From NCBI GenBank assembly GCA_030562195.1, contig CM060199.1, positions 22,526,338-22,590,337 on the forward strand: DNA of 64,000 bases, read 5' to 3'. This DNA is from Nipponacmea schrenckii (lineage: Eukaryota; Mollusca; Gastropoda; Lottiidae). The position numbers and the translations under genes were made by a program. The notes beneath the pieces are model-generated. The model was not told the origin of the DNA. It ran no database searches and saw nothing but the letters and a program-made list of their open reading frames with translations. Every line of letters starts with the position of its first letter. Position 1 is the first letter of the stretch. Shown here one piece after another: positions 5,362-59,200 of this stretch.

Positions 5362-8300
5362 ATGGCAGTTATTATTGATATTTTACCATCAAGCTATCTT
5401 GTTGGACTTGCTGGTGACAAAGTTCCCCAAAAAGTTATAAAGGTTTGTCTTATATTTAAAGATATTTTATTCAGTCTCAGATCGCTGGATTTCCGTTTTC
5501 AGTCTATCCTGTAACACTGTAATACTATAATATCAAGCAAGTTTAATTTTGTTAGTAGGCGTATATATACTTGGTCTCTCTGTCTTTTTATTTAAAGGAC
5601 GTAAGAACGTTATGTGACCTAATAATCAAGCGTTATAAATTTGGAAGTTTTGACAATACCTAAGCATGAATCAGTGTGTCGACTAGAATCGTAGAGCTCT
5701 GAATTACAATCACGTTTAACATCACCAATAATTGTAACTCAAGTAAATATGTTAATTTTTCAGGAAGAAAATGAAACGTATATTGGTGCTTTTAAGAGAA
5801 TATTTTTCTTTATTCTTAAAGTAGATATTAAGGGCAAATCGGTCCTTCTCTGCAATTCATTAGATACTCCCGAGGAAGACACAGAACAGTTAAAACAGGT
5901 ATTCAGTTTTGAAACAAATAACATGGATCTGTGAAATTGATTGTTAAACGATTCTCATTCAGCTGGGCTGGGGCACGTGGAAGTAAAAAGATCCAGTTGG
6001 AAAATTCATAATTGCAATATCTTGGGAATGAATATTCATGGAATTAAAATTTGCTTTTAATTTCCAGATGCTGTTCGAGGACTTTGACGTGGGGTCACTT
6101 TATGTGGCCAATCAGTCCGTCCTGTCTTTATTTGCCACGGGACATCAGGAAGGATTAGTTGTTCGATCTTCAGAAACTCAAACAATTATTGCCCCAGTTG
6201 TCGATGGTAGGAATATTTTTTCCAATTACCGTTAAACACATTGCAACGTATATCGTACCAAACCCCACAGAGCTAAACATCTCAGGAGACTCTGTGATAC
6301 TAAAAAAAATAGAATGAGTTTTATTCGAAACGATATACCAACTTTTCATGGTCTCATTATTGTGTAAAAGAATATGTGTTTTTATGGTGAATTGGTGCCA
6401 TGACATCTAAAAAAGTCCAAAAAAACAGTTGAAAACTTTTGTATATAGCGAGAAATTAAGAGGTCCGTTTTAACACTATTTTTATGTGTTTTTTTTTTGT
6501 AGCAGAGATGGAATTTTAACTTTCGGTTTGTTGTTACAGGTTATGTTGTAAAGAGTGATGTTGTGATTCTCAATATGGGTAATCAGGATTTACTGAAATC
6601 GCTTAAAGGTTTGTAAACAATCTGATGATACCATGGTACAGGTATTTCTCCATATGCTAGCCTATATGCATGCCAAAAAAAAAAAATATTTTTACATTTT
6701 CTTCTAATATATGGCAGCTATATTTGGTGTGACAATCTGACCCTCTTGCTATGTCTGTTACAACTATTTTTGAAAGCACACAATAATAGGTCTTCGAAGA
6801 TATTAACGATTTTCTCACCTTATTAACACTTCTTTCAAATAAGATTCAAATAGAGAATGATAATGTTATTATTTTCTGCTAAATTTTTTGTTTTATCTAG
6901 ATACAAAAGGAATTCACCACCATATCCATGACGTTGTGGAGAAGAGTTCTAAGAAGAGTTTACTATATAAAACTATTGTTTTAGCTGGTGGTCCTTATGA
7001 TCCAGGTATTTGACTTCAAACTTTTCATAATAGTAATATTCCCGTTTTAGATAGTTCATGTTTTTTAAATCCAAATGTGGAATTTTACACCCGAATTCCT
7101 GAACTCTCCGAATGATCCAACGTAAAATGTTTTAATCCCGAGATTGAGAAAGACCTATGGCGGGAACTAAGTTTCGATTTTTAATCTTTTCTGGCCCATT
7201 TCTGAAAATTCGGATGGGAATTCGGAATATTACACTCATCGAATTTTACCGTATTTTCTGCCAACTCAGCTGATGACAAGCTTACCCTAATGAGGTATTT
7301 TGTAATCTGTCAATTTTTTTTTTAAGACAATTATAATTTGCATCATTCCGTATTCTATGACATAAACGTGTGGACAGAGATAACCTAAAAGAACGTCGCG
7401 AAATAGTTCAGATTTTACGGAAAGAGGGGTTATATTAATGGAATGCGAACATTTATTGCAAGTTATTGCGTTCTAACGACTTTAAGATGTTTTGAGTAAA
7501 CTATCCATCGCTGCAGCAAGACTCCTTTTCTGTTTTTCATAATATTTCATGTGGTAATCTCTCAAAACTTCTTCATTAAAACGCCTTAAAATCAGGATTA
7601 AGATGTTAATGAGGAATCGCTATATTTAACTGGTTTGTTAATTTTAATTCTTCATCTTTCAGATTTGAAAGAGAAACTGCAAAGTGCACTGGCTAAGTTA
7701 GCTAACTGTACTGTAAAGGTTATTGACTATGCTCAACCTGAAAACCAAGCCTTCATCGGTGGATCTTTGCTGGCTTCCTTGCCAGAATTCAAAGATTTAC
7801 TCATTCAGCAATCCGATTATGAATCAAAAGTGGTTGCACCAAGGCTAGACAATAAATCTAAGCCTGTAGTAATAGATATGGCATCAAGAAATGTACATGT
7901 TGGTTATGCTGGTGATAGGAAACCATTACATTCATTTCAGGTAAAAAATTTGAAATTTTAAAAATACAATAATTTGCAGTTGTTTCACATATTTGTTATA
8001 AAATACTATCTTGATTAATGGAATGTTAAGGTCAGCTTGGAACAAGATCGTTTACTTAAATTAAATAGTGGAACTTTATTGAGTTGCTATCGAAGGCGAT
8101 GGAGGTAAAACAGGACTCCTGGAAAATTGAACATAAACCTTATTTTAAATCATTTGATTTTGTAGACTGGAAATTATGAAAACATACTTCGAAATATATT
8201 CAATGATGAGCTGAAGGTTGAAGCAGGAAAAACACAAGTCTTGGTTTCTGTATCTGTGGCTACACCAGAAAAAGAAAAGGAAGAGATCGTAAAAGTACAA

Positions 8301-10318
8301 TCAATTATAGTATATAACATCAGATCTGGAATGTTTCGTTCATGTTTTATACAGGTCGTTATCCATGATCTGACGATATTCAAATTTAAAACGTATTCTT
8401 TGGATTTTAGTCTCAGCATCAGAATGAGCAATGCCAAATACTGGTTGTTTAACCATACCACAGATTGTCTATCATGCAGTAAATTGAATATTAAATAAAA
8501 TGCACTCCAATTCCTTCAGATCAGCTGGACAGTTAATTCACCCACAATAAAGAAATATTTCACGACACGAAGCTTCTAGATTTTGATCAAATTAGACACA
8601 AATTACGTCTACAGGGAAGGGAAATAGTATGTAGTAATTATGAGTCACGCATATTTATATTAATAATGCGATTAATGGATGCAATTGCATAGTAACTTTC
8701 CTTGAACATATTCGATTTATATAAGGGAAGTTCTATATAATAACATATTACACTTGGTACTATTGTAATTTGTAGATACTGTTTGAGAAATTGGGGGTAT
8801 CTAGTTTATACATAGCAAACCAATCAGTATTGTCTTTATTCGCCACTGGGCATAAAGAAGGTTTGCTGATTGACTCAACTGAATCTCGAACCTGCATAGC
8901 ACCCATAATCGATGGTAAGTTGAAACATCCAAAATAATCGTAATAATGTACGAAAACACAATTTTGAATAGAAAAAAATGAATGGTGATTATCTAATGAC
9001 GAGTCGCTGATGGCATGTAGTTATTAGTTTCAATTAAATTAATTTTAATAGGGAGATTTAACTTAGATTATAAAGAGTGTGACACTGAGCCAATGAAAAC
9101 TTATAGCTGTATTTGAAAAGGGGTACATTCAACAAACCTAGCTGAAAAGTGATATTACGGACTCCGATGTAAGGGAGATAAAGAAAAAGTATATATGTTT
9201 ACACTAACTTGAAATCCTATTATCGCAGGTTTTGTGGTTAAAAGTGATGTACAGGTGACAAATGTTGGTCGTGATGGTTTATTGAATTCATTAAACGGTA
9301 AGTTATTTGGTTTTAATTCTTTACATTGCCAGTGCCTAAAGCTTCTTTAAATTAGTTTTCCAAGTCAAAATCGGCATATAAAGTTCGGTGGAACTATCTT
9401 GAGGATCCGTGTAGTCGACCAAAATTCTCCTGTTTGTGTTTTATTGAGACTCGTTTTTACACACTTAACATTTTTGATATAGCAATCATAAGGCTCCAAC
9501 TCCATAATGTACATAATTAATTATACATTAAGACATAATCAAAGCCAATGACTATGGGCAAATACCTTTTCTGGCGTCATTCTTGCTATTTTAAGATTAG
9601 TAAAGCATTCGTGAGCGGTAGCTTTAACTAAATTAAATGAAGCGATTTTATTCACGCCAAAGGATACATACTAGTGCAACTACTGACAAAAGGAGTCTGG
9701 GCCTAAAGCAAAGGTCTTTCCATAACAACTAGTCATTTTATAATGGCATCTCAATTTAAACTTTTCATATTTTAGATGCTGATGGTATTCATCAACGGGT
9801 GAACAATGTAATACAGACAAGTTCAAGGCGAGAAATGTTATACAAAACCATCATATTAGCTAGTGGTGCGGTTGGATGTGGTATGTAATAATCGTTACAT
9901 CCTACGTTTGCAATTGAACTAACAAAGTCGTGTCTAGTGTAAAACAACGGATATTAACTACTTTGAAGTCAATATCACACTGGGATTTTTCCAAATTCAT
10001 TGCCACTTTCAAACTCGAAAGTATTCTGTTGAAAATACTAGTGTTGTCTTGACCTTTATCGAGATCAAAATCCGAGAATTCAACTAGAGCAGCCGCCTTG
10101 ACAATTGTCTATTTTCAGGATTTGGCGAGAAGCTTCAAAAGGAAATGACTAAATTTCACAGTAACGTAGAAGTTTTAGATGCCTTTGCACAACCCGAATA
10201 TCAGGCATGGATTGGTGGATCTATCTTGGCATCATTACCAGACTTTCAGAATATGTTAGTTTCCAAAGCAAACTACACGGAAGAGGGTATTAGAGTTGTT
10301 CATGAAAAATGTAAATAA
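5362..10318 (+). CDS. Tandem (twin) reduced actin-like protein, 11 exons, 482 aa
   Basis: Exons: 5362-5442, 5764-5898, 6068-6206, 6540-6608, 6901-7005, 7663-7940, 8166-8294, 8776-8914, 9229-9297, 9776-9880, 10119-10318. All junctions have GT/AG and the frame stays open. Each half (about residues 1-240 and 243-482) follows the actin order: VVID-type first strand with a GLAGD/GYAGD turn, NQSVLSLFATGH (matching the actin stretch around Gln137), a YVVKSDV or FVVKSDV strand, LYKTIVLAGG or LYKTIILASG, then FIGGSLLASLPEF or WIGGSILASLPDF. One exon (7663-7940) holds the end of actin 1 and the start of actin 2, so this is one fused protein. Each half is about 240 residues against 375 in actin: the stretches equivalent to subdomains 2 and 4 are almost absent. 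The glycine-rich phosphate loops are degraded, so ATP binding is doubtful. Role unknown. ATG 5362 is chosen because it opens the first actin strand. Confidence 0.85.
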
Positions 10319-12698
10319 AACTTTGTCTTTATTAATGTATACTACACAGAATACAAGTAAATCTATAAAATAGAATGTTTGTGATATATGATATATATAG
10401 ACGATTTTGTGAATTGAAATTCGATATATTTTATGTTTATTTATTTGTCTGTTTAAATAAGTTTGGTTAACTGTGCAATTATAGGATCCAAAAGATAATA
10501 TAACTGAAATTTCTTGTTAAAAGGAAATTTTTATTTCTTTCAATTAGAACTTAGTGATTCAAAACAAAAATGTTCAAATGTGTATTTTGTCTGCTTTTTG
10601 TTTGTGATGTATGCAGTCCAGAATATAGTCTTTATAATGCATATTCACAATTTGAAATTCTATATTGTAACACATTTGTTCTTATAAATTGTTTTTCAAA
10701 ATTGTATTACTTTCTTGTTTTCGTCCAATTACGAAAACATTTCGAAACTCGTGGGTCTTTTTTAATGAACTTTACTACAGATATTTGCTCATGAGAAATG
10801 GATTTTGATGGATTGGGAAAACCAATGTAAATAAAGCAATCCGCAATACTTTTACATACGTGTCTCCAGAAGTGAAGAGCTGAAGTTCGAAATGAATGCC
10901 TAAATGTTTAAAAACATTGCTCGGTCGCCAGAAAAACGCATAGAAACTATGAAAATATTTAGATTATCACGCATAATAAACCCAATATTTCATGTTGAAA
11001 TTAAAACATCTCTGTTCTTGTACCATTGTCCTTTCCCCATACGTATACCAATATATATAAGAAAGACGAGAAAAATTCAGATCGTAGTAGTAACAATTAA
11101 AATGTTTTTCATTACACACCAAAATAAGGAAAATTAATTAAATTGCTGTCCACTCAGGCCTATGTCTGTCAGTAAATCAAAGTATACAATATCAGCATCA
11201 AAGTAGTATTAAGGGTCTTTAATTTATGATGGTTCACATAAAAATGACATGATTCACTTTTTATTATCTTAAATTAACTTTTAAACTAGGTGATAATTCT
11301 TTTAATTTTAGAATAAAAAATTCTTAACATTTCAGGTTCAGCTGAAATTTAAAGTTGTTTATTCAAATTTACAGGAAGTATCACCTTGGAAAAATAAAAG
11401 TTTTTAATTCAAAATAAGATGTGAATTATGTCATACCTGAACTATATAAAATATATTTAAAATTACTTAACGTTTATAATTCCATTAGATAACTCTCGCA
11501 TGAAAAGTATCAAATCTTACATAATTTGGAAGACCATATTCCTTTTCCCTAAATATTTTCAGGAAAATTCGTTTAGGAAAAATGGGTTATTAGTGTTGCA
11601 GATAACAGATAACTTTCACGGAAATAAAATTTGAATGTCTAAATTATGTAAATGTTTTATATATAATAAGATTAGTTTGATTATTGTCAAAAATCTATAT
11701 TTTGATTGAATCTGTATTAAAACATAATTATATAATTATCAGATTATATTGAATGTATATCTGATTATCCCACCAAGTGTCAAAATTAATCATAAAGTTA
11801 TTTATTTATTTGATCAAGTGTAAATCTTAATGTTGTGAAATGTTCTGTATATATTTATATTTTAATGGGCATGGGCATTCAAGGTATTCAAAAGTCTGTT
11901 GTGCGTTGAATCCTTACACTGATTTATACCTATTCCTATTCATACAGATCCAAAAATATTATTTTTTCTTATTTAAAATGTCTTTCACTAAGGTGAAAGC
12001 CTGTTTTTAATACTATAATTGATTTAAACCTTGATTCCATTTAAACTAATTATGTATGAATTTGGGAATCGCACTACCTTGAGAAGAAATTAAACCAAAT
12101 TCCACAAATTTGTAGCCTACAGTGAATTAAGTAATAAATTTATATCATTACTTTAAGGATTGATATGGTTGTTTTCATTTACAAACAGTCCGAATATCAT
12201 ATGCTATGAACATGAAATTCCATATTCGTCAAAGTAATGACAGTAACATGACAAAGAATTTACTTCAAATTCTACTAGTACATTTCAATAATAAATAATT
12301 ATACATTCTAAGGAGAAAATTATTCGCTACAAAAGTTTAAAAAACTTAAAACGTCGATGTCCGTTTACTTCAGATCATAGACATATTTCAGGAAACGGGC
12401 TCCGACACAGTGTGCAGTAAATAAAGGAATTACTCGGGTTCGGACGGGGAGTCTACTCCGAATCCATAACCTGTCTTTACTGACAGTTGACTATTCACTA
12501 CCATTTTAGTTTTAAAACGGTCTAATCAACGTGAACAACGTTATTGTCCTCATTTTGTAAAGTAATAGTAAGAATATTTCGGATTAATATGGAATATACT
12601 AATATAGATATGAGATTAATCAGATTATAGAATAATATCTGTAATCCTCAACGACCAGTGTAAACGTTGACCATTGTCTAAATACCAAACAACTATCA
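10319..12698. other. Intergenic, 3' of the twin actin-like gene
   Basis: An AATAAA overlaps the stop codon (10315-10320) and another lies near 10829; either could serve the twin actin-like mRNA. The rest is AT-rich, with two short ORFs (10570-10794, 10904-11137) that have no supporting features. Confidence 0.4.
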
Positions 12699-14346: not shown

Positions 14347-14625
14347 AAAGCAGAAACCAAACAGAAAATGTCATGGGTAGTGTATAACAGTCCATTGTGG
14401 AAAAAAGATAAGGTGCCAACATCAATCAAACCATCTCCGAGAACTCCAGAATGTCAAGAACTTGAGAAGAACTTTGTTAACGATGGTATTAAAACGAATG
14501 TATATAATAAACCAAGGAAAAGACCTATCATCCCACCATATGACGCAGTTAAAGATGAATACGCACAAGCTTACTTTAAATCACCAGTTGTTCAAGGCAT
14601 CATAGACAGACATGAGTCGTTAAAA
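14347..14625 (+). CDS. C17orf98-like N-terminal exon, copy 1
   Basis: The exon is open from an acceptor-like TTTTCCATAG (ending 14346) to a GTGGGT donor at 14626. If ATG 14368 is the start it gives 86 residues ending phase 0. The core EKNFVNDGI, a basic stretch, IPPYDAVKDEYAQAYFKSP lines up with EKSFILD, ITPYNSQKDNHVKSYFNFS in the complete gene at 18252 and with the copy at 15829. It ends in the same phase as exon 1 of the complete gene, so it could splice to the downstream exons as an alternative first exon, or join the copy at 15829, which also begins in phase 0. No private downstream exons were found. Function presumably as for the complete gene. Confidence 0.6.
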
Positions 14626-14684
14626 GTGGGTATTGTTTTATATATTTATGAAATGAAATAAACGTCCTACTCTTTTACACTTGT

Positions 14685-14905: not shown

Positions 14906-15828
14906 AGACCAGTTTTATGAGGTCAATTGCATGCATACTATAAAATTTTAAAATTGCACTGAAAAGAATTCAAAACGTGTGATTTTTTGAATATGGAATT
15001 GTTCTATTACATGGGTTGCTTGAGATTGCATAAGTTGTCAATGAAATTGCTCATGTAGAGGTCATGTGTAAATAGCCAAAAGCTTAAGTAAAAGAAGGTT
15101 TTTCAATAATTACTTTGTTTCATGAATAAATCGCGTTTGTGATTCTATTCCTTAGTCATCCGATAAATATTTTATGCTCTGTTGACCGAGTTTGAGACTG
15201 TAATAGATTTTAAGAGGTGGCCTAGTATTCTTTTTAGCTGACATGTTCTAGAGACTTCGCGTTGTCTGTTCCGAATTCTTCATCTCCGCAATATACTCGT
15301 CAAAATTTTTCGAGTTAGAGGGAAATATCATTATTACTGGAAAATATCATGGGATCATTTGCAAGGTTTGAACAAAAAGTTAAATGCAACAAGAATTGTA
15401 TGCAATGAATTTCATTAGACTAATCCCCACGTGTACCAGTATTATTATATTTGTAAATATGATTTTGCAACATCTCATCTAATTCGAACTGAAGTCCTGG
15501 TAAACTGTTTCTATATAGCACATTGTACAGTATTGCCCGTCTTCGTGATGATAATGAGAAGAATAGGGGACATTGATGTAAAATAAATATATAAATTGTA
15601 CACTTAAGTGTAAAAATAACCTTATCTTGATTTTTTTTAGTATTTCATCCCAACAGGCAACAGACACTCCAACCCCTCCTCCCCACCCTCCACTATCCGT
15701 CGCTAGGCTGTAAAAACTGTATATTATTTAATTTGTAAATTGCTTATGTGCTTTGTGTACGACAATAAACAATACAATACAATAGAATTGTTACATACTT
15801 TTTAAATTTATATAACATTACTTTAAAG
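14906..15828. other. Stretch between the two extra C17orf98-like exons
   Basis: AT-rich with a pyrimidine-rich patch (about 15668-15690). No exon could be recognised on either strand; if the exons at 14347 and 15829 belong to one gene this is their intron. Confidence 0.4.
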
Positions 15829-16084
15829 GAAATGAAAGAAGAGAAAACAAGGTTAAATCTCAACAAACTTAGTGCTAGAAGACGAATTCCTCTTAGTCCA
15901 CTTGATGACGAGTTAGAGGAACGAGAGAAAAAGTTTGTTAATGATGGTATTTGCACAGAAAGGCGAAGAACGAAATATAAAGATGTGATTCCCGAATACG
16001 ATGGAACCAACGATTACCATACTAGTCATTACACCAAACGACCAGACGTTCAACGTTTATTGGCTGTCACGTGCACACCACGTG
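15829..16084 (+). CDS. C17orf98-like N-terminal exon, copy 2
   Basis: The open segment follows an acceptor-like TACTTTAAAG and runs to a GTAAGA donor at 16085 (phase 1). It begins EMKEEKTRLN and contains EREKKFVNDGIC, a basic stretch, IPEYDGTNDYHTSHYTKRPD, colinear with the other two copies. The first methionine (15832) may be a true start or an internal residue if it is spliced after the 14347-14625 exon. Reading past the donor gives a stop at 16296 with no conserved residues. Spliced in phase 1 to the acceptor before 18229, translation would stop within four codons (TAA), so a join to the complete gene does not extend the protein. Confidence 0.55.
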
Positions 16085-16713
16085 GTAAGATTATTGGTTT
16101 CTTCTTTTCAAGGTCGAAAAAGCAGTATCGTAAGCTTGTTTGTGCATCGAGTTTACTAATCTTTAGTTTGTATTCTTTCAATTTCTCGTCTGACGTGTAC
16201 GCTCCATGCCATTTCAGAAAAAAGGTTTACAGGGTAACATTGGTTGTGTCTGGGAGCTACAAACATGGGACCACAGGGGATTATATAAATAAATAAATGA
16301 AATATAATATATAAAAATATAAGAAAACAGAAAATACCCATTCAATCGATCAATCGATGTAATACTCGGATCAGTGTAGAAAAATAACACTCAACTCCAA
16401 AACACAATAGATCTAAGTCAATTATTTACCTTGTCGAAGTCTTTATTCATATCAATAATGGACTGCCCTATTATACTTTGTCTGTTTTGATTATAAAATA
16501 ACAATTTGCAGACTAATAGAGTATGAATTTCAAGTGTCATTTAAAGGACCTCGGAAATGCCTTAAAGTATGAAGAGAAATGAACTTATTTTTGAAGACAA
16601 AGTATTTCAATTGTAATATTTTGATATAGAACAATATTTAACATGTAACTTTGAACTCTCAAAATAATCGTGAACAAAAATTGAACAGTATATGACAACC
16701 CCTTCACAGTTAA

Positions 16714-18225: not shown

Positions 18226-18251
18226 TAGGTGCTTATAAATAATTCAGCAAT

Positions 18252-20329
18252 ATGTCCGAGTCACCAAAAGAGAACACCAAACGAGCCAACAAAATCTACC
18301 GAGCACCACCAACACCACCACCAAGCGATCTATTCGAAAAGGAAAAAAGCTTCATCCTAGACTGCAATGCCGTTAGCTCTATATCAAACGATTATTCAAA
18401 AATTAATCCAAAGTTAGGACCAGTTATAACACCATATAATTCACAGAAAGACAATCATGTTAAAAGTTATTTTAATTTTTCTGGAGTTGAAAGAACGTTG
18501 AAGAAAACCGGTCAGGTAAGTAAATTTAATGATTATTATCAATGAATTAAGTTCATAGGTTATAATATACCGTACAGAAACACTGTGTACAGTATTAGAA
18601 CAATCCCTTTAAGTTTAACGAAATGCATAGATAAGGCAGATTTTTCACATTGCTGAGATTCAAAATGAACATAGTACTGAAAACCCAATGCTGAGGAATA
18701 GTTGTTGGTACCTCTATTAACAACATCACACAATGGCTATATAAGACGATCTTATTAATTATAAAAAAGGTTTTGGTGAATAATACATCACTAAGCAATA
18801 ACATTTGATTGAATTGGACTTAGCTTTGTTGTAAAATCTGAATTAAGGCAACGCAATTTATAAGTAAAATGCAATACATTGTAAAGTGGATTGTGGCGTT
18901 GATTTTTCAAGATATCTCTAACATACAGACTTATGTCTACCCTGTTATGTAATTGGTAAATAGGCCGATTGAGCTACTTGACATAACATACGTCTTAATG
19001 CCGTAATTTGAATTTCCTCTTCATGTTTCATAAAAATATGACTTTATTTATTTAAGGATAAAATGGGAGAATCTATAAATGGTCATGTTATGGATTATTT
19101 TCAAGAGAAAGGAGCTGGTTACAGATATTTATCTAGAAGGAATTGTAACGGAGCTGGTAGGTAATTTTACTCTGTTTTCTGTTCTTGGTTGTTGGGAATA
19201 ATATAGAACAAGACCATTCTGAATTAAAATATAATGACAGTGTGCCAAGCAAAGTTCTATGTTGTCATGTTCACACGAATACTGTTTCAGAAACTTTATG
19301 TCTTGTGAAAGTAATCATTTCGTCGGACTAACATTGCCTTTTTTTGGTGCGCTATATTTCGCTCGAAAACGTGATTTTACGCTCAACTTGAATTTTAGCA
19401 AAATTGTTTGGAATAGGCTTGGACATAACCGAGTATTGTTGAAACTGTCTATGAATCGGTCAAGTTGTATACATGTCATTTTTAAAGGGATAATAGGCGT
19501 TAGAATACACTCGTCCTACGGCTTATATTTGTGTTTAATATTGACTATTAGTTAAATAAGTATGCATCTCACACTTAACCAAATGTTAAAAAGCCACAAT
19601 AAAAATATATTCGGAATTTTAAAAAAAGTGAGCCAGCGACGATTCCATTCAGTTTGAGATTAAAAGCGTCTGGTAAATCAACGCTAAAACATCATTGTGC
19701 AATTCAACAGTAGGGGTCAAGGACGCATGAAAACCCTCATGTTAGACTTACTTCCCTTTATATTTTACAATTTGAAAATCGCTTTATTTTGGGGATTTTA
19801 GAGGGATTTTGATGTATAGGTATGACACCAGGTAAGTCCACTGATGGATGAAGCTAGATGTATGATATGCTTTATTGCAATAATAAAACAAGTCATGTGC
19901 TTACTTCCTCCGTTTCTAATGCCGAAACCCGTATTCAGGATAAGATGACTTCAAGGGGTTTTTGTACATCACAGATCAAGTAATATATCCGGAGGGGCAA
20001 TGGGTATGGCCTTAGTTGAGGTAACGAAATTAGGGGGCATTGCTCCACCTTACCAAACCCTCGTCCCTCCATTTTCCTGACCAAGATTTGAGGTGTTAAC
20101 GTAAGCCACAGTATATCTAATTCAACATTCTTTCTAGATTTAACAATTGACCGCTATCTCTTCCTTTTCAGGTCGATCTCGGGAATCTATAGATGGCCAC
20201 TCTCAATTTATGCAAGATGTTAAACCAGTAATAGGTTATAATGGCAATTTTGGTTACAGACGTAATACATTTTGGTTACGTCAGAGCCCTTCACCATTTG
20301 GTACCAGCTCCAGCTCACCAACACATTAA
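18252..20329 (+). CDS. C17orf98: C17orf98-like protein, 3 exons, 173 aa
   Basis: Exons 18252-18515, 19057-19156 and 20172-20329 join with GT/AG sites in an open frame. The protein aligns over most of its length with the small human protein C17orf98 as I recall it: EKSFILD; ITPYNSQKDNHVKSYF; LKKTGQ; GAGYRYLSRRN; then a C-terminal IGYNGNFGYRRNTFWLRQSP. Human C17orf98 is of similar length (about 154). It has no signal peptide or membrane segment. The short tyrosine/arginine-rich motifs resemble small axonemal microtubule-binding proteins, but this role is inference. An acceptor 23 bases upstream and an in-frame TAA before the ATG support 18252 as start. AATAAA signals lie at 20650 and 20712. Intron 2 (19157-20171) holds a MITE. 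Confidence 0.85.
19486..19850. mobile_element. MITE with TTAA target site, copy B (3' truncated)
   Basis: Starts AGGGATAATAGGCGTTAGAA after TTAA (19482-19485) and is nearly identical to 21596-21990 for about 350 bp, but the right end is missing. It lies within intron 2 of the C17orf98-like gene. The high identity indicates recent activity. Confidence 0.8.
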
Positions 20330-22930: not shown

Positions 22931-24721
22931 TCATTGATCCTCCTCACCAGAATCATCGCTAAGTGGCATTGAAAGCTGGTCCTTTTGGTGACTGGATGAT
23001 GGCAAGTCATGAAACCATTGATGGACCTCTTGTGGAATAACTTTACTTTTACAAAGTTTTAATAAGTCAGACTTTTTGGCAACACTTATAGGTATTCTGG
23101 TCGAATAAGCCTTATCTAAAATGTCTGGTAAGGTAGGGCGCCCTCTACCATATACTGATATTTTTCTAAAATCATCGTCATAATTATATCGATAAAAGAT
23201 TGTACCGGGTTCAGCTTTAACATAGCGGAAACTTTTAACATTGAGCCAATTGACAATATTACCATCAGTATCTTTTCGTCTATTCTTTAATAATAAAAGA
23301 GATAGATTTTGAAAATTTATGATGTCATCGTGGTGAAAATTAATAACATTATAAGGATTGTGGCGACGTGATCTTTTGAAAATTGACATCCAATCGAGCA
23401 TTGAATATACAGGTGTATACTTTTTTTCATGCTCGATAGCAGCATGCATGCTGTCACATTCCATGTGTGAATGGCCACTTTCGAGGAAGTTGTGAGTAAT
23501 GCATTCAATATGAGATGTTAAAACAGTATATAAAAACATTGAAGCAACATGCTGATTACGATTTTGCTCCCCACATGTGTCTGAAAACAAAGAAACATCT
23601 TTAACACTGTCAGGTAAATTTGTTAACCAGGTATAAAGACAAGTACCAATTTCATTACTGCCCCTACCACCTTCAACTTCTGACCAACAATAGCAATATG
23701 CGATGTTTGGGGGAAGTGCATTGTAGATGCAAAGATTGTACACGCACAATTTTCTGCTATAATACAATAAAGATGCTGAGCTACTGGGAATCTGAAGGAC
23801 ACTTTGCAGATCAAAGGAAGCTGAAACAAAAGATGCATCATTAGCAGCTCTCATTTTGTCTTGACTTTTTGCTGATTGGGCATCTTGTTTTCGCTTCAAG
23901 TGTTTTTCATGTTCGTCTTGGAAGGCTTTCTTATCATCCCCCGTAAGAAGGTTATATTTGACACACTTAGAACACTGATCTTTCTTTGGATGGTAAAAGG
24001 ACAAATTAAATTCTTCACAAAATGTTCTTCTATAAATCTTGTCTCCCACTGGATTTATTGCTGGGATGGTCTCCTCACAATATTCTTGATAAAGACAATA
24101 CATTTTCGAAATTGACAAAGTCTGATCTAAATAAAATCTTCTGGTGTCCTTGCGGGTGTAATGTGATTCAATTTTAGGGAAACTTTTAATATGATTCCTG
24201 ACAATGTTCAAAGTTTCCTCACTTAACTTATTTCCAGGCTCATGCTTTCCACGACTATCAGAACCTGAAAATGTGCCAGCTTCACCAACATGCTGTAGTG
24301 CTGTATCAATCGGTCCATGACTAATGTGTAGTGTTTTTTCAAAAAACTTTCTGCACACCCTCTTCCTTTCTTTGCTACTTAGGAAATAATATAAAATTGT
24401 TTTTTCTCTTTTACGCTTACGTATTTTATCTTTGCTATGGATTCTGACTCTCTGCACCCCCAAAACCTCAATTCTATTTAACCAAAAGTCTTTCTGTCTG
24501 GCAAAATCTCCCAACAACCAATATTCACTGCATATAGCATTTCTTCTTTCTTCGGTGAAGTTGTCTTTACATCGATATCGACAACCGCAGTTTACTGGAA
24601 GGGGTGTTTTTTTAGGTTTAATTTTCCCAGTTCCGTCTGTGAATTCTTCTCCATACCTAGTCTTATCTTTTCTTATGTTCTTTTTCCATTTTTCGGGTTG
24701 ACATTTTCGTTTTCGTGAACC
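22931..24721 (-). CDS. Transposase-like protein of the TIR transposon
   Basis: The open frame covers 596 residues from just after a TAA (24722-24724). The first ATG is at 24517 (528 residues), but the 68 residues upstream of it look coding: a basic start (RKRKCQPEKWKK) and a CGCRYRC motif, both of which I associate with this protein family in other invertebrates. Central features are HPKKDQCSKC (a CxxC), SFDLQ, then FSDTCGEQNRN, and SGHSHMECDS; the acidic residues in SFDLQ and FSDTC are plausible catalytic aspartates of an RNase H-like DDE fold. The C-terminus is acidic. A TTAAG at the 5' boundary could be a splice acceptor, so translation may start in an upstream exon. The frame is intact, so recent mobility is possible. 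Confidence 0.75.
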   Translation of the reverse strand, partial: GSRKRKCQPEKWKKNIRKDKTRYGEEFTDGTGKIKPKKTPLPVNCGCRYRCKDNFTEERRNAICSEYWLLGDFARQKDFWLNRIEVLGVQRVRIHSKDKIRKRKREKTILYYFLSSKERKRVCRKFFEKTLHISHGPIDTALQHVGEAGTFSGSDSRGKHEPGNKLSEETLNIVRNHIKSFPKIESHYTRKDTRRFYLDQTLSISKMYCLYQEYCEETIPAINPVGDKIYRRTFCEEFNLSFYHPKKDQCSKCVKYNLLTGDDKKAFQDEHEKHLKRKQDAQSAKSQDKMRAANDASFVSASFDLQSVLQIPSSSASLLYYSRKLCVYNLCIYNALPPNIAYCYCWSEVEGGRGSNEIGTCLYTWLTNLPDSVKDVSLFSDTCGEQNRNQHVASMFLYTVLTSHIECITHNFLESGHSHMECDSMHAAIEHEKKYTPVYSMLDWMSIFKRSRRHNPYNVINFHHDDIINFQNLSLLLLKNRRKDTDGNIVNWLNVKSFRYVKAEPGTIFYRYNYDDDFRKISVYGRGRPTLPDILDKAYSTRIPISVAKKSDLLKLCKSKVIPQEVHQWFHDLPSSSHQKDQLSMPLSDDSGEEDQ

Positions 24722-24734
24722 TTAAGTACTATGG

Positions 24735-25427
24735 TTTTCTCTTGTTGTATCTACATTGGTTTGGGTTTCTCTTGTTACATCTACGTTGGTTTGGTTTTCA
24801 CTTGTTGTATCTACATTGGTTTGGTTTTCTCTTCTTTTATCTACAGTGGTTTGGGTTTCTCTGGTTGCACCTACGTTGGTTTGGGTTTCTCTTCTTGTAT
24901 CTACATTGGTTTGGCTTTCTCTGGTTTTATCTACTTTGGTTTGGTTTTCACTTGTTGCATCTACATTGGTAAGGGTTTCTCTTCTTGTATCTCCATTGGT
25001 TTGGGTTTCTCTGGTTTTATCCTCTTTGGTTTGGATTTCACTTCTTGTATCTTCATTGATTTTCGTTTCTCTTGTTTTATCTACTTTGGTTTGGATTTCA
25101 CTTCTTGTATCTACATTGGTTTGGGTTTCTCTGGTTTTATCTACGTTGGATTGGTTTTCACTTGTTTTATCTACGTTGGTTTGGATTTCTCTTCTGGTAT
25201 CTACATTGGTTTGGGTTTCTCTTGTTGTATCTACTTTGGTTTGGGTTTCTCTTGTTGTATCTACTTTGGTTTGGATTTCACTTCTTGTATCTCCATTGGT
25301 TTGGGTTTCTCTGGTTTTATCTACGTTGGTTTGGGTTTCTCTTCTGGTATCTACATTGGTTTGGCTTTCTCTGGTTTTATCTACTTTGGTTTGGTTTTCT
25401 CTGGTTTTATCTACTTTGGTTTGGCTC
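24735..25427. repeat. 30-bp minisatellite, 23 units, inside the transposon
   Basis: Twenty-three near-identical 30-bp units (core TATCTACATTGGTTTGG then GTTTCTCTT). Because 30 is a multiple of three, frames stay open: three on the plus strand give hydrophobic decapeptides (FSCCIYIGLG), while the minus frame gives a hydrophilic decapeptide ETQTNVDTTR. That minus frame is in phase with the transposase downstream, separated only by a TAA at 24722-24724. It has no in-frame ATG at its upstream end, so translation as such is uncertain. Confidence 0.85.
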
Positions 25428-50400: not shown

Positions 50401-53400
50401 TACATTTTGAATACACCGAGTCACCATCGTGTTCACCATGGAAGAAACAGATATTGTATTGATAAGAACTATGCTGGCACTCTGATAATCTGGGACAGGA
50501 TATTCGGTACTGTATCAGCTAACGTTTAGTTTTATTTCTGATATAATTTTAATTCTAAATCCTAGTTTGTATAAATTGCGAGTGTCAGAATATTTGTAAC
50601 GTTTGTTTAGTATTCTACAAATATAAGAAATAACATGAATTTACATCCTACTTTTCTGTAACTTATAATGCTTATAAAGAACTGTACTGTAGTGAAATTT
50701 TAGCCAAAACAGTGGGCTGGGTCTTTAATTTTTTTTATATTTTTAACTGTCGGGGAACGCGAGGATTTGTTTATTGTTCGATCTGCACCAGTGATAAATT
50801 GGTTTAAAAAGTGTCGGCCTTCGCCGGGATTAAGCTCGGACCTTCATACTAGCGAGCAAGGGTATAACTCTGTAAGAATCCTTGATTGTATAAATACTAA
50901 GGTACTAAATCTTATCTTCCGATTTAAGGTACATTCAGCCCCGAAGAAGAAGAAGTAGCGTATGGTTTAACTCACCCTGTTGGGACCTTTGATGCTACTG
51001 ACGTACAGGTTAGTATATCAAATACTCCTTATACATACTAATGTCAGGGAGATTTTATTTTTTTGAAACTTTATTAACATGTGTCTTTTGATATTGGTCA
51101 TTAACTGTCATCAGATATTATTAAAAATTATGACTGATTTTGTTTCTAAAACTAAGCTTTTCTTTTAGGATACCCCTTACATAAGAGGAAATGAACTTTT
51201 AGAAATACTTAAAATATTTACAAAATAAAATTTCAATAATTCAAATTGTATCAATCTATTTCTATGTTTAAATCTAACTTAACCCTGTCCGTCGGTCCAT
51301 AATACGCGAACGCGAATGATCATTTATGTTCATTAGATCTCGGACAAGTTCGAAATTGGCAATTTTTCGATGAAAGGTTTTTGAGTTATTGCCCTAGTCA
51401 AAAGTGTGGAAATTGGTATGTGAACGCTATATCGACTACAGTTTTCATTTGGTTTGAATGAATTGACGTGATCTTGGAAAAGATGATATTGACAATTTTT
51501 CGATGAATAATTTTGAAGTAATTGCTCTTGACATAGTCAAAAAGCGTCTAAATTGACTTGTGAACGCTATAGAGACTTCAGTTTTCATCTGATTTGAATA
51601 ACATTTGATGTGGTTATTTTTATTGATGAAATCTTGAATAAGTTCTATTACTGATTATTCAGTGAACTGTTTTGAGTTAATGCCCATGACTGAGTCAAAT
51701 GCATCAAAATTAGCTTGTGAACCTAATAGAGACTACTGTTTGAATGTAATTTAGTGAGATCGTGTATATTGTTAAAGCCCAAATATTGTTTGAATTTCAA
51801 CCTGCGTTTAAACAGAAATAGACTTTAAAGTGGACGTATACTTGCTAGGCAACCACTTAATATTTTTATACATGATCTTGCGCTACATCTAAAATCTAAC
51901 TCCGATTTTTCACAAATGATATCACTGTATAATCTACCGCTAATAGTTTAAATGTTGTTCAATCTAAGCTTCAAGAAAATACTGCCTCTATTATGAAGTG
52001 GTGTAAATCCAACTTACACTTAGTAAATGCTTCTAAAACATAATGTATGTTATTAACTACTTATCAAAATCGGCAACTACTCCCTACATCTAAATTAGAT
52101 ATAACTATAAATAATGATAAAATATAAAATGTCTCTAATTTCGAACTACTTTTGATGTTGTTTTAAACCGGATATGAAATACAATTTACATGTAAAAAGT
52201 ATATCTAGAATTCAAAATACCAAATTATTTTAACTTTAATTTCTTCCAGAAAATCTTCGGTCATTATATTTCAACCTTATTTAGATTATTGTTCGCCTAT
52301 TTGGGACACTAGTGTGGTGTCAAAGACATAAATTCGTGAACAAAATCAGACTCATTCTGAATCAGAGAATGTTGTATGTTATATCTGGGATTGTTACGTG
52401 GAAATTTTGTTTTATACAGTTTGGTTATGTGGAGTATCTGGTGCATCGAACTAACAAAATGGCAAGCCTTGAAGATAAGATGAAAAGTTTCTTTTATGGT
52501 CCAGGCTGGTTACCTGGTAAACCTAGAACTGGTGATATCAACGACATTCCTCTGGTAAAATCATATATTATTCATTCTTTGTGTTTTATTTCAGTATGTT
52601 CAAGTAATACAAAAAAACTCCTATCTTTTGTTTCGGTACTTGTTTTGTTTAAGATTTTTTAACTTTTGCTTTTCTTTTTCTTCTAGATCGAAAAACCAAT
52701 CAAACGATATGGAAAAACGATATCAACATGGTTAAATATATATGTAGTTATACATTTTTCTTTAGTCTTTATTGGTTTTCAAATACTGTCTCAAAAAATA
52801 ACGGTAAGTATTCGTGTACTGCAATTCTAAAGGATCATTGAATATCCAACATTGCTCAATTTTAATATTTACTGGTGGTTCGACTTGTATATGATTATTT
52901 AGGAAATTGAAATTTTTCTCTCTCTTATTGTTTTAACGGTTCATGTTAAGTCGTTGAATATTTATTTAATTAATGTTAATTTTCAAGTAATTCCGTTGAT
53001 GTAATAAATTTATATATTTTATTTGGCTTAAAGTTTTCATCTGACGTAAATGAATTTTAGCTCAAATCTTGAAAAGTAGTTCAGTCTGATTTTAATCTGT
53101 TTTGAAGATAATTCTATTGTACTAGGCAAATCAAAAATACTGGGTAGTCCTCAATAGTAGACGTACTTTGAAATTTTGACGTTGTAGTTGAACATATTGT
53201 GATTAACAACTGTTAAACATGCTTTGGGACTAAGATAGAACATTTTACTACTTGTTTTCTTGTCGTTGTTGATTAAATTATCGTTTTGGTTTCCAAGCAA
53301 CTGTATATTATTTTAGTTTATGTGTTAACTCTTGAGAAGTCGCTCTTTGATGAAGTAGTGATGTAATCAAATCATTACGATTGAAAATGCTTTAAACATA

Positions 53401-55239
53401 AGTTTTATTTATCTTGGTCAATGGCTTCAATATTGTTTATACATAATGACTTAATATTGTTTTATTTCTACTCTTGATGTTGTTATTATCGGTGCAAAAT
53501 TGATAGCCCATTTACAGGTGCTTTAAAGCATTTTCTACCACATCAAAAGACAAATATTTACTTAACTTAAAAATCCGATAGTATAACCTTTTAGATTATT
53601 GTTCGCCTATTTGGGACACTAGTGTGGTGTTAAAGACATAAATTCGTGAACAAAAACAGACTCATTCTGAATCAGAGAATGTTGTATGTTATATCTGGGA
53701 TTGTTACGTGGAAATTTTGTTTTATACAGTTTGGTTATGTGGAGTATCTGTTGCATCGAACTAACAAAATGGCAAGCCTTGAAGATAAGATGAAAAGTTT
53801 CTTTTATGGTCCAGGCTGGTTACCTGGTAAACCTAGAACTGGTGATATCAACGACATTCCTCTGGTAAAATCATATATTATTCATTCTTTGTGTTTTATT
53901 TCAGTATGTTCAAGTAATACAAAAAACTCCTATCTTTTGTTTCGGTACTTGTTTTGTTTAAGATTTTTTAACTTTTGCTTTTCTTTTTCTTCTAGATCGA
54001 AAAACCAATCAAACGATATGGAAAAACGATATCAACATGGTTAAATATATATGTAGTTATACATTTTTCTTTAGTCTTTATTGGTTTTCAAATACTGTCT
54101 CAAAAAATAACGGTAAGTATTCGTGTACTGCAATTCTAAAGGATCATTGAATATCCAACATTGCTCAATTTTAATATTTACTGGTGGTTCGACTTGTATA
54201 TGATTATTTAGGAAATTGAAATTTTTCTCTCTCTTATTGTTTTAACGGTTCATGTTAAGTCGTTAATATTTTTTAATTATTATGTTACATTTTCAGTGTT
54301 GAATTCCAGTTGAGTGTTTGATATAAAATTTATCATATTTTATTTTTCTTGTTTTGTCTGACCGTAAATGAATTTTCCAAATTATGCAAAAGAGAACAGT
54401 CGACATTTTAAATTTATTTAAATAATTTTCGGAATACTTGTACTAGGCGAAAATAAGAAATATCTGGCGTAGTCTCAATAGTAGACCCACGATTATTTGA
54501 GGGCTCACATTTTGACGGTGAGGTGTGAACACTATAATATATTAACTTGACTGTATAATACATGTTTCTGGGACTAAGATGATTGGTTCGATATTTTACT
54601 ACTTGTTTTCTTGCGTTGTTGATATAAATTATGCGTTCTTTTAGGGTTTTAACCAAGCAACTGTGATATTATTTCTACTGTTTATTGGATTAACTTTGAC
54701 GAGTTTTGGTCGACTCTTTGATGACAGGTATGATTATATCAAATATTTAATGATTGAAATTATGGCTTTACTAATAACGTCGTCTTATTTTCGTTGGTCT
54801 GGTCTTCAATATTTTTATACGATAATGGACTTGTGATTGACTTTTCATTTCTGAGCCTGACTGTTTTATTATGATGATGCAATAATTTTTTTTAGTCCCA
54901 TTTATCGAGGGCTTTTAGCGCATTTTCCTCCTCACCTATCATCAATAAGAACAAAGGCAGATGATCAGTCCACACTTAAAAATACGATAGTATAACAGCA
55001 TAATAATACAGAACATTAAACGTTTTTTGATTTTCAGGGAATCAGGAAGAGTGATGGAATTAGTTAGATGTATAATATACTTATTTTCCGATGTTGTGCT
55101 GATGTTCTCAGGATTCTATTCATCGACCATTCTCATTCAAATTCTTCGTATAATTTTTATTTCTTCTACTGTTATATGGATTATAAAATGTAAACATATC
55201 ATTTTACCTGGAGTCAAAAACAACAAGAAATGTAATTAA
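44479..55239 (+). CDS. AGMO: Alkylglycerol monooxygenase, 11 exons, 446 aa
   Basis: Exons: 44479-44589, 47233-47360, 47778-47929, 48557-48660, 48891-48986, 50374-50506, 50929-51008, 52420-52554 (or 53730-53864), 52687-52803 (or 53996-54112), 54645-54727, 55038-55239. The 446-residue product equals human AGMO (445) in length and matches it throughout. AGMO is an ER membrane, tetrahydrobiopterin-dependent di-iron enzyme that cleaves the ether bond of alkylglycerols. Visible fatty-acid-hydroxylase histidine motifs: YYWFHRLAH, then [11 protein letters not shown], then [13 protein letters not shown]. Other landmarks: [70 protein letters not shown]. Hydrophobic helices lie at both ends. Junctions show GT/AG; the donor after IFG (GTACTG) is weak. 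Exons 8-9 are present twice, so the transcript may carry an extra 84 residues. Confidence 0.95.
45850..46740. repeat. Tandem duplication of about 500 bp, second copy decayed, in AGMO intron 1
   Basis: Blocks with AAACATGGATAGATGTTG, GATCCCAGCGGGGTT, AAAACCGGAAG, CATTGAAGGTTAAGGTCATT and TTGGCCTTTTGAATT recur about 500 bp apart (for example GATCCCAGCGGGGTT near 45987 and 46471). The second copy shows many small deletions relative to the first. GAAGGTCAAGGTCA motifs resemble repeats near 32.5 and 61.9 kb. Confidence 0.75.
49011..49424 (-). CDS. Uncharacterised ORF inside AGMO intron 5
   Basis: A 137-codon minus-strand frame, less AT-rich than its surroundings, with coding-like composition: [40 protein letters not shown] and a charged end with [20 protein letters not shown]. 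Upstream on the same strand (about 49425-49500), in a different frame, lies [15 protein letters not shown], which could be an earlier exon or a frameshifted part. I do not recognise the family. Its position inside an intron on the opposite strand suggests a nested gene, a retrocopy fragment or part of a mobile element. Confidence 0.35.
   Translation of the reverse strand: MIAITLCLATEPCPSDIDEVSECLKDVCSIRANVTIIMQHFIQHFIRFQGVVQPSIGLLIKEISSAIQKLYECAFGDGVTSPTRNDQPPLRSFRRLLRASNWADALRIRQSQMRGDEFNDCKLIVIRERTHPRHYGH
51290..51790. repeat. Repeat of about 150-bp modules with a GTCCGTCGGTCC head
   Basis: Three imperfect direct modules share TTTTCGATGAA, GAGTTATTGCC, ATTGGTATGTGAACGCTATA and CAGTTTTCATTTG. 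The head CCTGTCCGTCGGTCC resembles the MITE at 1578. Non-coding, in AGMO intron 7. Confidence 0.65.
51840..52416 (+). pseudogene. LINE reverse-transcriptase relic in AGMO intron 7
   Basis: Frameshifted translation gives pieces that follow the order of the C-terminal half of a non-LTR retrotransposon [20 protein letters not shown] sequence near 51995, LDITINNDK near 52090, then [12 protein letters not shown] near 52280 and [11 protein letters not shown] near 52353. Stops and frameshifts show it is dead. It abuts AGMO exon 8, and its last about 135 bp are copied at 53591-53726 as part of the exon 8-9 duplication. The subfamily cannot be decided from these fragments. Confidence 0.6.
52281..52957 (+). 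repeat. Duplicated block carrying AGMO exons 8 and 9, copy 1
   Basis: Contains the exon pair 52420-52554 and 52687-52803 with intact splice sites and frames. It matches 53591-54266 with about four differences over 676 bp. One changes Val to Leu in exon 8 (YLVHRT against YLLHRT). Confidence 0.95.
52958..53590 (+). pseudogene. Decayed copy of the AGMO exon-10 region
   Basis: Compared with 54267-55000 this stretch keeps many short matches (GGGACTAAGAT, TTTTACTACTTGTTTTCTTG, CCAAGCAACTGT, GATAGTATAAC) but has many small deletions. The exon 10 equivalent near 53290-53360 has lost its acceptor and frame. The decay contrasts with the over 99% identity of the adjoining duplicated block. Confidence 0.7.
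53591..54266 (+). repeat. Duplicated block carrying AGMO exons 8 and 9, copy 2
   Basis: Holds 53730-53864 and 53996-54112, both with intact splice sites. It lies directly before the only intact exon 10 (54645-54727), so this copy has the simpler splicing path. The head (53591-53726) is the terminal LINE relic. Confidence 0.95.
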
Positions 55240-56250: not shown

Positions 56251-59200
56251 ATGATATCCATTGCTATAGCTGCTCGCTTTAGTGAAATAAATATTGGCAG
56301 CATCGACACGAAACTTCACGAATACGCTTTTAATGGCGACCTGACAGGATTGAAAGAAACATTGTCCAGTCTCTCAAACTCTAACATCCAGTCGCTTTTA
56401 GATAAAAAGAATCATCTTGGTTGTACAGCATTGCGATTAGCATCCACAAGTAAGTAAATAATACTGTAATTGACACATTTATATGTTGTTTAAAGTCCAA
56501 CAGAAAAAAAAAAACGGAAGCTAAAATCACATGGTCACAGACCGCTAATTCATTTGTCCATGTTAAATCATGAAAATCAACCTTCTATAATATTTTCCAG
56601 AAATGTTGAATATTTTCCAATATGTCTTGAAGCCTGGCTTATCAGTGGCGTAACAACTTAGTCGGGGGCCCTTGGACAACATTTCGTGAGAGGCCCCATG
56701 TCCAATCGACCGTCGATATTCATGGCCACGTTAGGTGACAAAAAAAATACACTTTGTCTTGTTGATCGTAGAAAAAAATGGATTTCAAATTGTAATATGA
56801 ATATTTATATACATGTATGTATTTCAAAACACAACACACATAAAGATAGAAAAAGAGAGGCTAGCTTAGCTATCTAGCTATTCATACACAGCACCTTAGG
56901 AAGTTAGATAAATTTGACAGCTCGAGCTTTGGAGTTCGCAAACTTGTCTATAATGCTGTCAATGTCTAACTTTTCAGCGGCATCACGCTCAATGGCCAAC
57001 AGTGACAGACCGTCAAGTCGGTTTTGTGCTATTTGTGATCGCAGATATGTTTTAATCAGTTTAAGCTTGGAAAACGACCGCTCGGCACTAGCCACAGTGA
57101 CAGGAAGTGTGAGAAATAAAGCACACGCGGTGGTTAATTCTGGCACAGATGCTGCCATGTGGGAACTCATCAACAGTTTGAAAATATCCAACACAGAGCT
57201 TTGTGATGTAAGTTCTTCTTTGAATTCACGTCGGAATGAACAGATCTCGGACGAAAAGTCAATTCCCACATCATGTTTATAGTTTACTTGCAGTATATTT
57301 GCAGCACGCTCTATGTCTAAATCGGAAAGATTCAAAAGATTTGAAGGCAACAGAAAACTAAATAAATCAAATACAAGTCGTTGCCCTTGGAATCTTGAGT
57401 CCAGCTGTGAAAGAGCAGTATCAACAATAGGAAAGAATATATGGACTTTGAACGCTGCCTCTGGTGTTGGGAGGATGGGGTATCTTAGCGTCCCGGGTCG
57501 GTCCATATTAGGCCCTTCCCCTAATTTCGGCCCTTAGCCTCCGGGCCTTTCAAGTCATAATCCGACTCTGTCAATGCCAAGAACAAACTAAACAGATAAC
57601 ACGATCTATGTAGGCCTACGGGTCGTCGGGCATTAGTGTACGACATGAACGAACAAGGCATGAATGAAAAGATATAGCTCAAATCTGCTCAAAGGCAAGG
57701 GCCTCGGGGGCCCCTGGACCTCGGGGGCCCCTGGACTTTGTCCAGCCTTGTCCAGAGGGCGTTACGCCACTGTGGCTTATAGCTCATTTTCTGTATAAAA
57801 ATTCAATATAAAAGTCTTGAGCTAGTCAAAATGAAAGACCACTAAATCGTATCAACATCCACTCGACCGAGCACAAAACGACTAATTTTAGAAATATGTA
57901 TTGTCATCTCAACGTGTCAAAAATAGGCATTAAAAAGCCCAATAGGGAGAGAGAGGATGTTTGCCCATAAAACAAGACGAGGCAGTTTTTCAGAAGGCTA
58001 TATTTCTAAAATGTGTATGTCCGTGTCCGTCCTTTACTTTCAAGGTTTTATACAACTCAAATCCAAGTGGCAACAGGAAAGTCATAAATAAATGTAAATA
58101 TGATGTTAAACATAATTCTTTAAAGTCGCTCTTCTATGCAATCACCCATCTTATTTTCTTTTTTTTTTTTCTTTTTTTTTTACACTTTAAAATAAAATTT
58201 CAGAGTGTAGGCCTTAGGACCGGAAGTAGATAGACACAGACACTTTTTGTGCACTCAGCTTTTTTTAAACAATATTTATATTCAAAATTTGCAAATAGTA
58301 AATGCATATATATGGTTTTGTAAACAAGATATTTAAACTATAAAATACAATTTATACAAAAATACAAGGTTAAATTAATAACAACAATGGATGTTGACAC
58401 TGTTTAACTAGTACATAACATGCATTCAAATAGAGTAAGTATATTTAAGTTCATATTATGTTCATTTCTCTCACAAAGCGTCAAGGTGCAATCGCAATGG
58501 TGGCAGATTGTCTGCTTGAAAAGTTAAATACTATATATTTTTTACATGTTATTTGTAGCTGGAAACACAACATGTGTTGAATATCTGTTATCTATGGGTG
58601 CCTCTGTGGATATAGCTGACATCAAAGGACAAACTCCTTTGTTTGTTGCTGTTAAAAACAACCATGTCAAATGTGTACAGACTTTATTGGAGAACGGTGC
58701 CAATCCTGAAGGTGACGATGCCAATATGGCAACTCCATTATATACTGCAGCACTTAACGGTTTTCTGGAAATCATAAAGGTAAATTTGAGACTATTTACG
58801 CCTGTAATCATACATAGTCACAGTTTTACAACAATTTAATCTCGAGAAAATCTTCACCGCTTGATAGTCAAAATCTGCTATGATTTAACTTAATACTGTT
58901 ATCCAAAATGAGCTTTATAATGAAAGATATTAAAAATTTGATTACTAAATTCACGTTAAATTGTCTTTTCAGTTGCTCATCCAACATGGCGTAAATATAA
59001 AACCAATGGGGCAACCAAAAAGGATTACAAGGGTATACTCAAACGATGCATTAGAAGTTGCGTTAGCATATAATAACTTCAACTGTTGTAAGACACTTCT
59101 TTTGGCAGGGTATGAATCTTCAACCATGTCGTTATGTCATATATTTACAAGGTACAAATGTAATCGTAAAATGTTGGAGCTTTGCTATGACTTTGGCTTT

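Follow-up and report, generated by a model that had tools for sequence, protein, structure and literature searches.

Few proteins are as constrained as actin, and the four-lobed clamp that it forms around ATP is thought to be indispensable. A conventional actin is a single unit, made of four subdomains around an ATP site. Arp2 and Arp3, two of the actin-related proteins (Arps), bring two actin-like units side by side at a pointed end, but do so as separate full-size proteins of a seven-subunit complex, while the bacterial actin relative FtsA, which has no equivalent of subdomain 2, carries another, additional subdomain, retains subdomain 4 and is an ATP binder. A predicted plant protein from Cuscuta campestris (P0001, 738 amino acids (aa)) contains two actin units in a single chain, and tandem actin models therefore exist in databases; the P0001 units, however, read as almost full-size actins in which subdomains 2 and 4 are present. 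Divergent actin relatives are also known beside the canonical Arps, as with Drosophila Arp53D, which one source (PMC8291977) describes as having a four-subdomain actin fold and an ATP pocket, noncanonical Arps being described there as often young, fast-evolving and expressed mainly in the male germline. Here we analyze a gene from the gastropod Nipponacmea schrenckii, located at positions 5362-10318 on the forward strand of a 64,000-nucleotide stretch of DNA (the window, C8:22526338-22590337), whose predicted 482-aa product has neither the four-subdomain fold nor the ATP pocket and instead joins two actin-derived units in tandem. Each unit is homologous to subdomains 1 and 3 of conventional actin, with essentially no subdomain 2 or 4 and with most of the listed ATP-site residues replaced.

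Rebuilding the gene model from the DNA gave 11 exons totaling 1449 bp including the stop codon, with no internal stop and with GT-AG boundaries at all ten introns. The whole predicted protein matched the Pfam Actin profile (PF00022) with an E value of 9.5e-79 and 265.3 bits, and so did each half when searched separately (unit 1, 242 aa, E=1.7e-31, 109.7 bits; unit 2, 240 aa, E=1.5e-47, 162.6 bits), all well above the curated cut-off of 27 bits. Exon 1 (5362-5442, 81 bp) contains the start codon and opens subdomain 1 in unit 1 (actin residues ~6-33), which exon 2 (5764-5898, 135 bp) continues. Exon 3 (6068-6206, 139 bp) covers the crossing from subdomain 1 to subdomain 3 and has the length and phases of exon 3 of multi-exon actin genes, exon 4 (6540-6608, 69 bp) closes the first part of subdomain 3, and exon 5 (6901-7005, 105 bp) encodes more of that subdomain. 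The fusion exon, exon 6 (7663-7940, 278 bp), encodes the end of unit 1 with its barbed-end groove motif FIGGSLLASL, a short linker and the start of unit 2 (VVID). Unit 2 then continues with subdomain 1 in exon 7 (8166-8294, 129 bp), with exons 8 (8776-8914), 9 (9229-9297) and 10 (9776-9880), which match exons 3, 4 and 5, and with exon 11 (10119-10318, 200 bp), which supplies the end of the unit, an actin-like C-terminus and the stop codon. An AATAAA beginning at 10314 overlaps this stop codon, and a further one lies at 10830. A weak point of the model is the donor of exon 7 (AAA followed by gtacaa), which is no strong match to the consensus and has an alternative in-frame GT 6 bases upstream.

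The two halves are related to each other in protein sequence, exon structure and phylogeny. BLASTP gives 47% identity between unit 1 and unit 2 over 228 positions, and other alignments give 44-45% over 234 columns. The exon pairs 3/8, 4/9 and 5/10 measure 139, 69 and 105 bp with equal phases in both halves; exon 1 and the portion of exon 6 counted to unit 2 are both 81 bp long, and exons 2 and 7 are close in length at 135 and 129 bp. When the protein of each half was aligned with splicing to the DNA of the other, the same exons were recovered apart from the outer ends of the ranges and a single donor, that of exon 1, which was placed at 5433 rather than at 5442 as in the model. In a protein tree of 46 actin-family rows, made up of 35 of the 168 homologues fetched and 11 rows from the N. 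schrenckii genome, the halves are sisters with support of 100/100, the bootstrap being not fully settled. The stem leading to both is 1.15 changes per column long, and since the split the change in unit 1 has been roughly fourfold that in unit 2 (1.06 and 0.26 changes per column). The first-pass annotation of this DNA had proposed a single open 11-exon gene spanning two actin-like units, with exon 7663-7940 carrying both the end of one and the start of the other, with three consecutive exons of equal length and phase in each half, and with an internal duplication followed by fusion as the origin; the rebuilt model, the profile matches and the comparison of the halves agree with it on each of these points.

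The units are nevertheless not whole actins. With the actin of the same genome as the reference for residue numbering, unit 1 lacks actin residues 34-48, 56-84 and 192-270 and unit 2 lacks residues 34-79 and 192-270, with small further gaps at 286-287, 304 and 321-325 common to both. The usual boundaries of subdomain 2 and subdomain 4, which we take to be residues 33-69 and 181-269, would make each predicted unit approximately subdomains 1 and 3, essentially without subdomains 2 and 4, so that neither would have the four subdomains of an actin. In each half the gaps fall at introns: subdomain 2 is missing at intron 1 (5443-5763) and intron 6 (7941-8165), and subdomain 4 at intron 4 (6609-6900) and intron 9 (9298-9775). 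What is left of unit 1 is 28-29% identical to the genome's own actin, L009, over 239 positions, and what is left of unit 2 is 32-33% identical over 237 positions, and each is therefore a divergent actin relative.

The residues that line the ATP site of actin are largely replaced as well. We compared four sets of actin residues (ATP site, groove between subdomains 1 and 3, profilin contacts and longitudinal filament contacts), in 24 comparisons without correction. Only 2 of 16 ATP-site residues in unit 1 and 4 of 16 in unit 2 are the same as in actin, while the genome's Arp1, Arp2 and Arp3 retain 13, 14 and 13 of the same 16 (Arp1 and Arp2 being named by solved structures, and Arp3 and Arp4 by the named homologues that they join in the tree). 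It appears from these counts that ATP-site residues are no longer favored in either unit. The first-pass annotation had spoken of two actin folds; the derivation of both units from actin stands, while the full folds give way to units essentially without two of the subdomains and without most of the listed ATP-site residues. The groove is the best kept of the four sets, with 7 of 12 residues identical to actin in unit 1 and 9 of 12 in unit 2, compared with 61/220 and 68/220 elsewhere (Fisher p=0.044 and 0.003, uncorrected), and the floor motifs of the groove are retained (IGGSLLASL and IGGSILASL, FATG).

The positions of the introns point to descent from an actin gene. In actin numbering (residue/phase), both halves have introns at 33/0, 122/0, 168/1, 191/1 and 308/1, while the multi-exon actin L009 on C12, whose best structure match is cytoplasmic actin, and the two divergent actins L010 and L011 on C3 have them at 41-44/0, 122/0, 168/1, 204/1, 268/1 and 308/1. 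Three introns, 122/0, 168/1 and 308/1, are thus identical in position and phase in both halves and in all three of these genes, whereas Arp1 and Arp2 each have an intron at only one of the three alignable positions, and Arp3 at none. Exon 5 of the actin genes (approximately residues 204-268) is absent from both units, and its loss leaves the frame intact because phase 1 introns flank it at either end. At 69 bp, exon 4 falls 39 bp short of the 108 bp that it has in the actin genes, and exons 1 and 2 are shorter near their junction. We would envisage that exon 5 disappeared from a copy of an actin gene rich in introns and that the exons at the subdomain 2 and 4 junctions were trimmed, yielding a half-size actin, that this half-size actin then duplicated in tandem, and that the last exon of the first copy became joined to the first coding exon of the second. 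Since both halves have the same two gaps and the same introns, the losses probably preceded the duplication. The protein tree of 46 rows does not separate an actin ancestry from an Arp1 ancestry. An origin from a particular Arp is unsupported, the halves sitting, along with Arp2, Arp1 and others, in an open fork of weak support (71/82) and forming no supported grouping with Arp2 or Arp3; the Arp3 of this genome pairs with a named homologue from elsewhere (100/100).

Three other readings of the gene can be weighed. The gene might be incompletely modeled, with diverged subdomain 2 and 4 exons hidden in introns 1, 4, 6 and 9 and a protein that is in truth two whole actins, and the fact that the gaps fall exactly at introns is what one would expect in that case. 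However, aligning five family members to the four introns, with 20 shuffles for each of the 20 alignments, found no remnant of such exons: one alignment of the 20 scored above all of its own shuffles, which is about chance, and that one (intron 4 with L011, score 35 against a maximum of 34) involved query residues 165-200, most of which precede the missing stretch. The introns at the gaps are 225-478 bp long, and the exons on either side of them join in frame, all of which make hidden exons very unlikely. We consider it highly improbable that this is instead a decaying pseudogene left open by chance. The long branches, that of unit 1 above all, would suit such decay, but 1449 bp have stayed free of stops and frameshifts despite a stem of that length, the ten introns are intact, and codon differences between the halves number 100, 65 and 151 of 234 at positions 1, 2 and 3 (chi-square p=9e-15). 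Differences that are most numerous at the third position and least at the second are the pattern of selected, constrained coding sequence. Homologous halves with parallel exons could also arise if each half were a gene or transcript of its own, yet the frame of exon 6 meets no stop past the end of unit 1, remaining open to 7959-7961 within intron 6, and the exon's sole Met sits within the first strand of unit 2, with none before that strand. Neither half is then a complete protein from these exons alone, and unit 2 by itself would need an unseen first exon; we give this explanation as little credence as the pseudogene. We are highly confident of the gene and its architecture as described.

The gene also appears to be unusual. 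Within the 399 Mb genome (1093 contigs), no second locus of the same kind was found among 67 actin-family exon matches (E<=0.001) and 30 matches to unit 2, a search that copies diverged beyond this threshold would escape. The actin and Arp genes modeled outside the locus carry subdomain 4 sequence or are full length, except L017 (C8:19.90 Mb), a poor model (score 131) with one internal stop and an architecture that is not settled. Protein database searches returned 54, 0 and 119 matches, which were actins and Arps only. These searches were word-based, needing short words in common, and had length limits, so that distant orthologues could escape them and they do not prove restriction to a lineage. 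None of the 168 distinct homologues fetched keeps subdomains 1 and 3 with both subdomains 2 and 4 gone. In seven of them (P0005, P0006, P0046, P0052, P0062, P0144 and P0145) more than half of subdomain 2 is missing between flanking stretches of subdomain 1, subdomain 4 being present in every case, and five are short fragments (146-161 aa) that lack most of subdomains 2 and 4 but lack other parts too. The first-pass annotation knew of no described animal protein with two linked actins; this agrees with the protein and literature matches listed, which hold no description of a tandem or lobe-less actin protein, though the Cuscuta tandem, which shows no sign of a common origin with the 482-aa protein, sets a limit to it outside animals.

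Three further observations concern other actin relatives. One of the five short fragments, the transcriptome protein P0140 (161 aa), aligns to subdomain 1 and part of subdomain 3 and reads across the missing subdomain 4; its N-terminal part is entirely absent, and it may be a fragment left by assembly. The pair of adjacent divergent actin genes L010/L011 (C3:11752500-11765500) recurs 29.6 Mb away as L040/L041 (C3:41378836-41391836), the two regions being identical at all 13,001 positions compared, which is either a very recent duplication or an assembly duplicate. Lastly, C5 at ~29.22 Mb (L018, L042) holds a very divergent single actin relative with a branch of 2.13, whose model covers actin residues 8-367, whose best structure match is actin (E=2.6e-50) and which was assigned to no known Arp.

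As for function, a unit without subdomains 2 and 4 would have no DNase-binding loop (D-loop), no pointed face and no ATP clamp, and because of this should not serve as an actin subunit. The barbed-end side and the groove would remain, so that each unit would offer a subdomain 1/3 groove to partners. This groove normally receives an amphipathic helix from an actin-binding protein or the D-loop of the last subunit in a filament, and two grooves separated by approximately 15 residues (the linker between the matched core positions of the two units in the alignments) would tether or buffer two such ligands or sit on the pointed end of a filament. Taken together, the reading that a single 482-aa protein of two tandem actin cores essentially without subdomains 2 and 4 is a likely nucleotide-free, nonpolymerizing bivalent scaffold is one that we would call an even proposition. 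That it represents an actin relative of a new class, a minimal form made up of subdomains 1 and 3, freed of ATP and polymerization and then doubled to form a pointed-end cap or a bivalent dock for groove-binding proteins, is plausible but falls somewhat below even, and the bivalent scaffold as the function in particular, although the one that we favor, is suggested more tentatively still. Subdomains 2 and 4 carry the D-loop and many of the contacts by which neighboring actins hold each other. Since these are the missing lobes, the built-in actin-like dimer suggested in the first-pass annotation is hard to reconcile with the sequence as a filament-like arrangement, and its cap or nucleator version would be possible only through the remaining barbed-end face.

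Several results weigh against the scaffold reading. The protein is a prediction from genomic DNA, and none of the database matches described above is an orthologue of it. Divergence between the halves at nonsynonymous sites (dN) is 0.49 by the Nei-Gojobori method (NG86), and the synonymous counterpart (dS) is not computable, leaving no dN/dS value. Arp4 of the same genome also has only 6 of the 16 ATP-site residues, and residues at this site are not lost faster than those elsewhere in the core (p=0.16 and 0.59). Groove residues are kept by Arp1 (12/12) and Arp4 (9/12) too, and the groove result may thus reflect the fold rather than a ligand. Enrichment was absent both for longitudinal contacts (10/30 and 11/30 aligned residues identical) and for profilin contacts (2/20 and 6/20), neither set being kept better than the rest. 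These last two results also bear on two other functions. The units might imitate a filament's two terminal subunits, in the manner of Arp2 and Arp3, and act as a pointed-end cap or nucleator, with grooves that accept the D-loops of the first actins and with addition behind them blocked, subdomains 2 and 4 being gone. It fits this idea that the missing parts are the pointed-end lobes, that the groove floor is the best kept of the four sets and that there are two linked units, one for each strand of a filament; the barbed-face longitudinal contacts, however, are those found not to be enriched, and a linker of some 15 residues looks short for side-by-side strands, so we regard a cap or nucleator as unlikely. 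A decoy that titrates profilin, WH2 or similar monomer-binding proteins, tuning actin assembly without touching filaments, would account for a groove floor retained in both halves and for the absence of the filament lobes, but with the listed profilin contacts so poorly kept we find it rather more doubtful.

Elsewhere in the window, three consecutive open reading frames (ORFs) on the forward strand (14347-14658, 15769-16293 and 18243-18542) match Pfam SPMAP1-like (sperm microtubule associated protein 1), with E values of 4e-7, 2e-4 (below the curated cut-off) and 1e-19, and thus stand as a small cluster in tandem, 4-8 kb downstream from the actin gene, perhaps a hint at expression in sperm. 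A 596-aa ORF with a DUF7869 domain (22931-24721, reverse strand) adjoins a 30-bp tandem repeat of 23 copies (24732-25424) that is open on both strands (236-aa ORFs). Further along are two ORFs approximately 1.3 kb apart (52285-52662 and 53634-54044, forward strand) that are near-identical by eye in the ORF list, a local duplication, an ORF with a hAT transposase dimerization domain (56904-57533, reverse strand; E=9e-9) and an ankyrin-repeat exon (58528-58836, forward strand).

For actin biology, the gene with its two tandem cores resembles a natural experiment that asks which half of the clamp can do without the other, the upper two lobes being gone and the lower two kept and doubled. If the protein folds, it would provide a ready-made minimal core with which the role of the subdomain 1/3 groove could be studied in the absence of ATP and polymerization, and it would show a route from actin to scaffold by phase-matched exon loss followed by tandem fusion.

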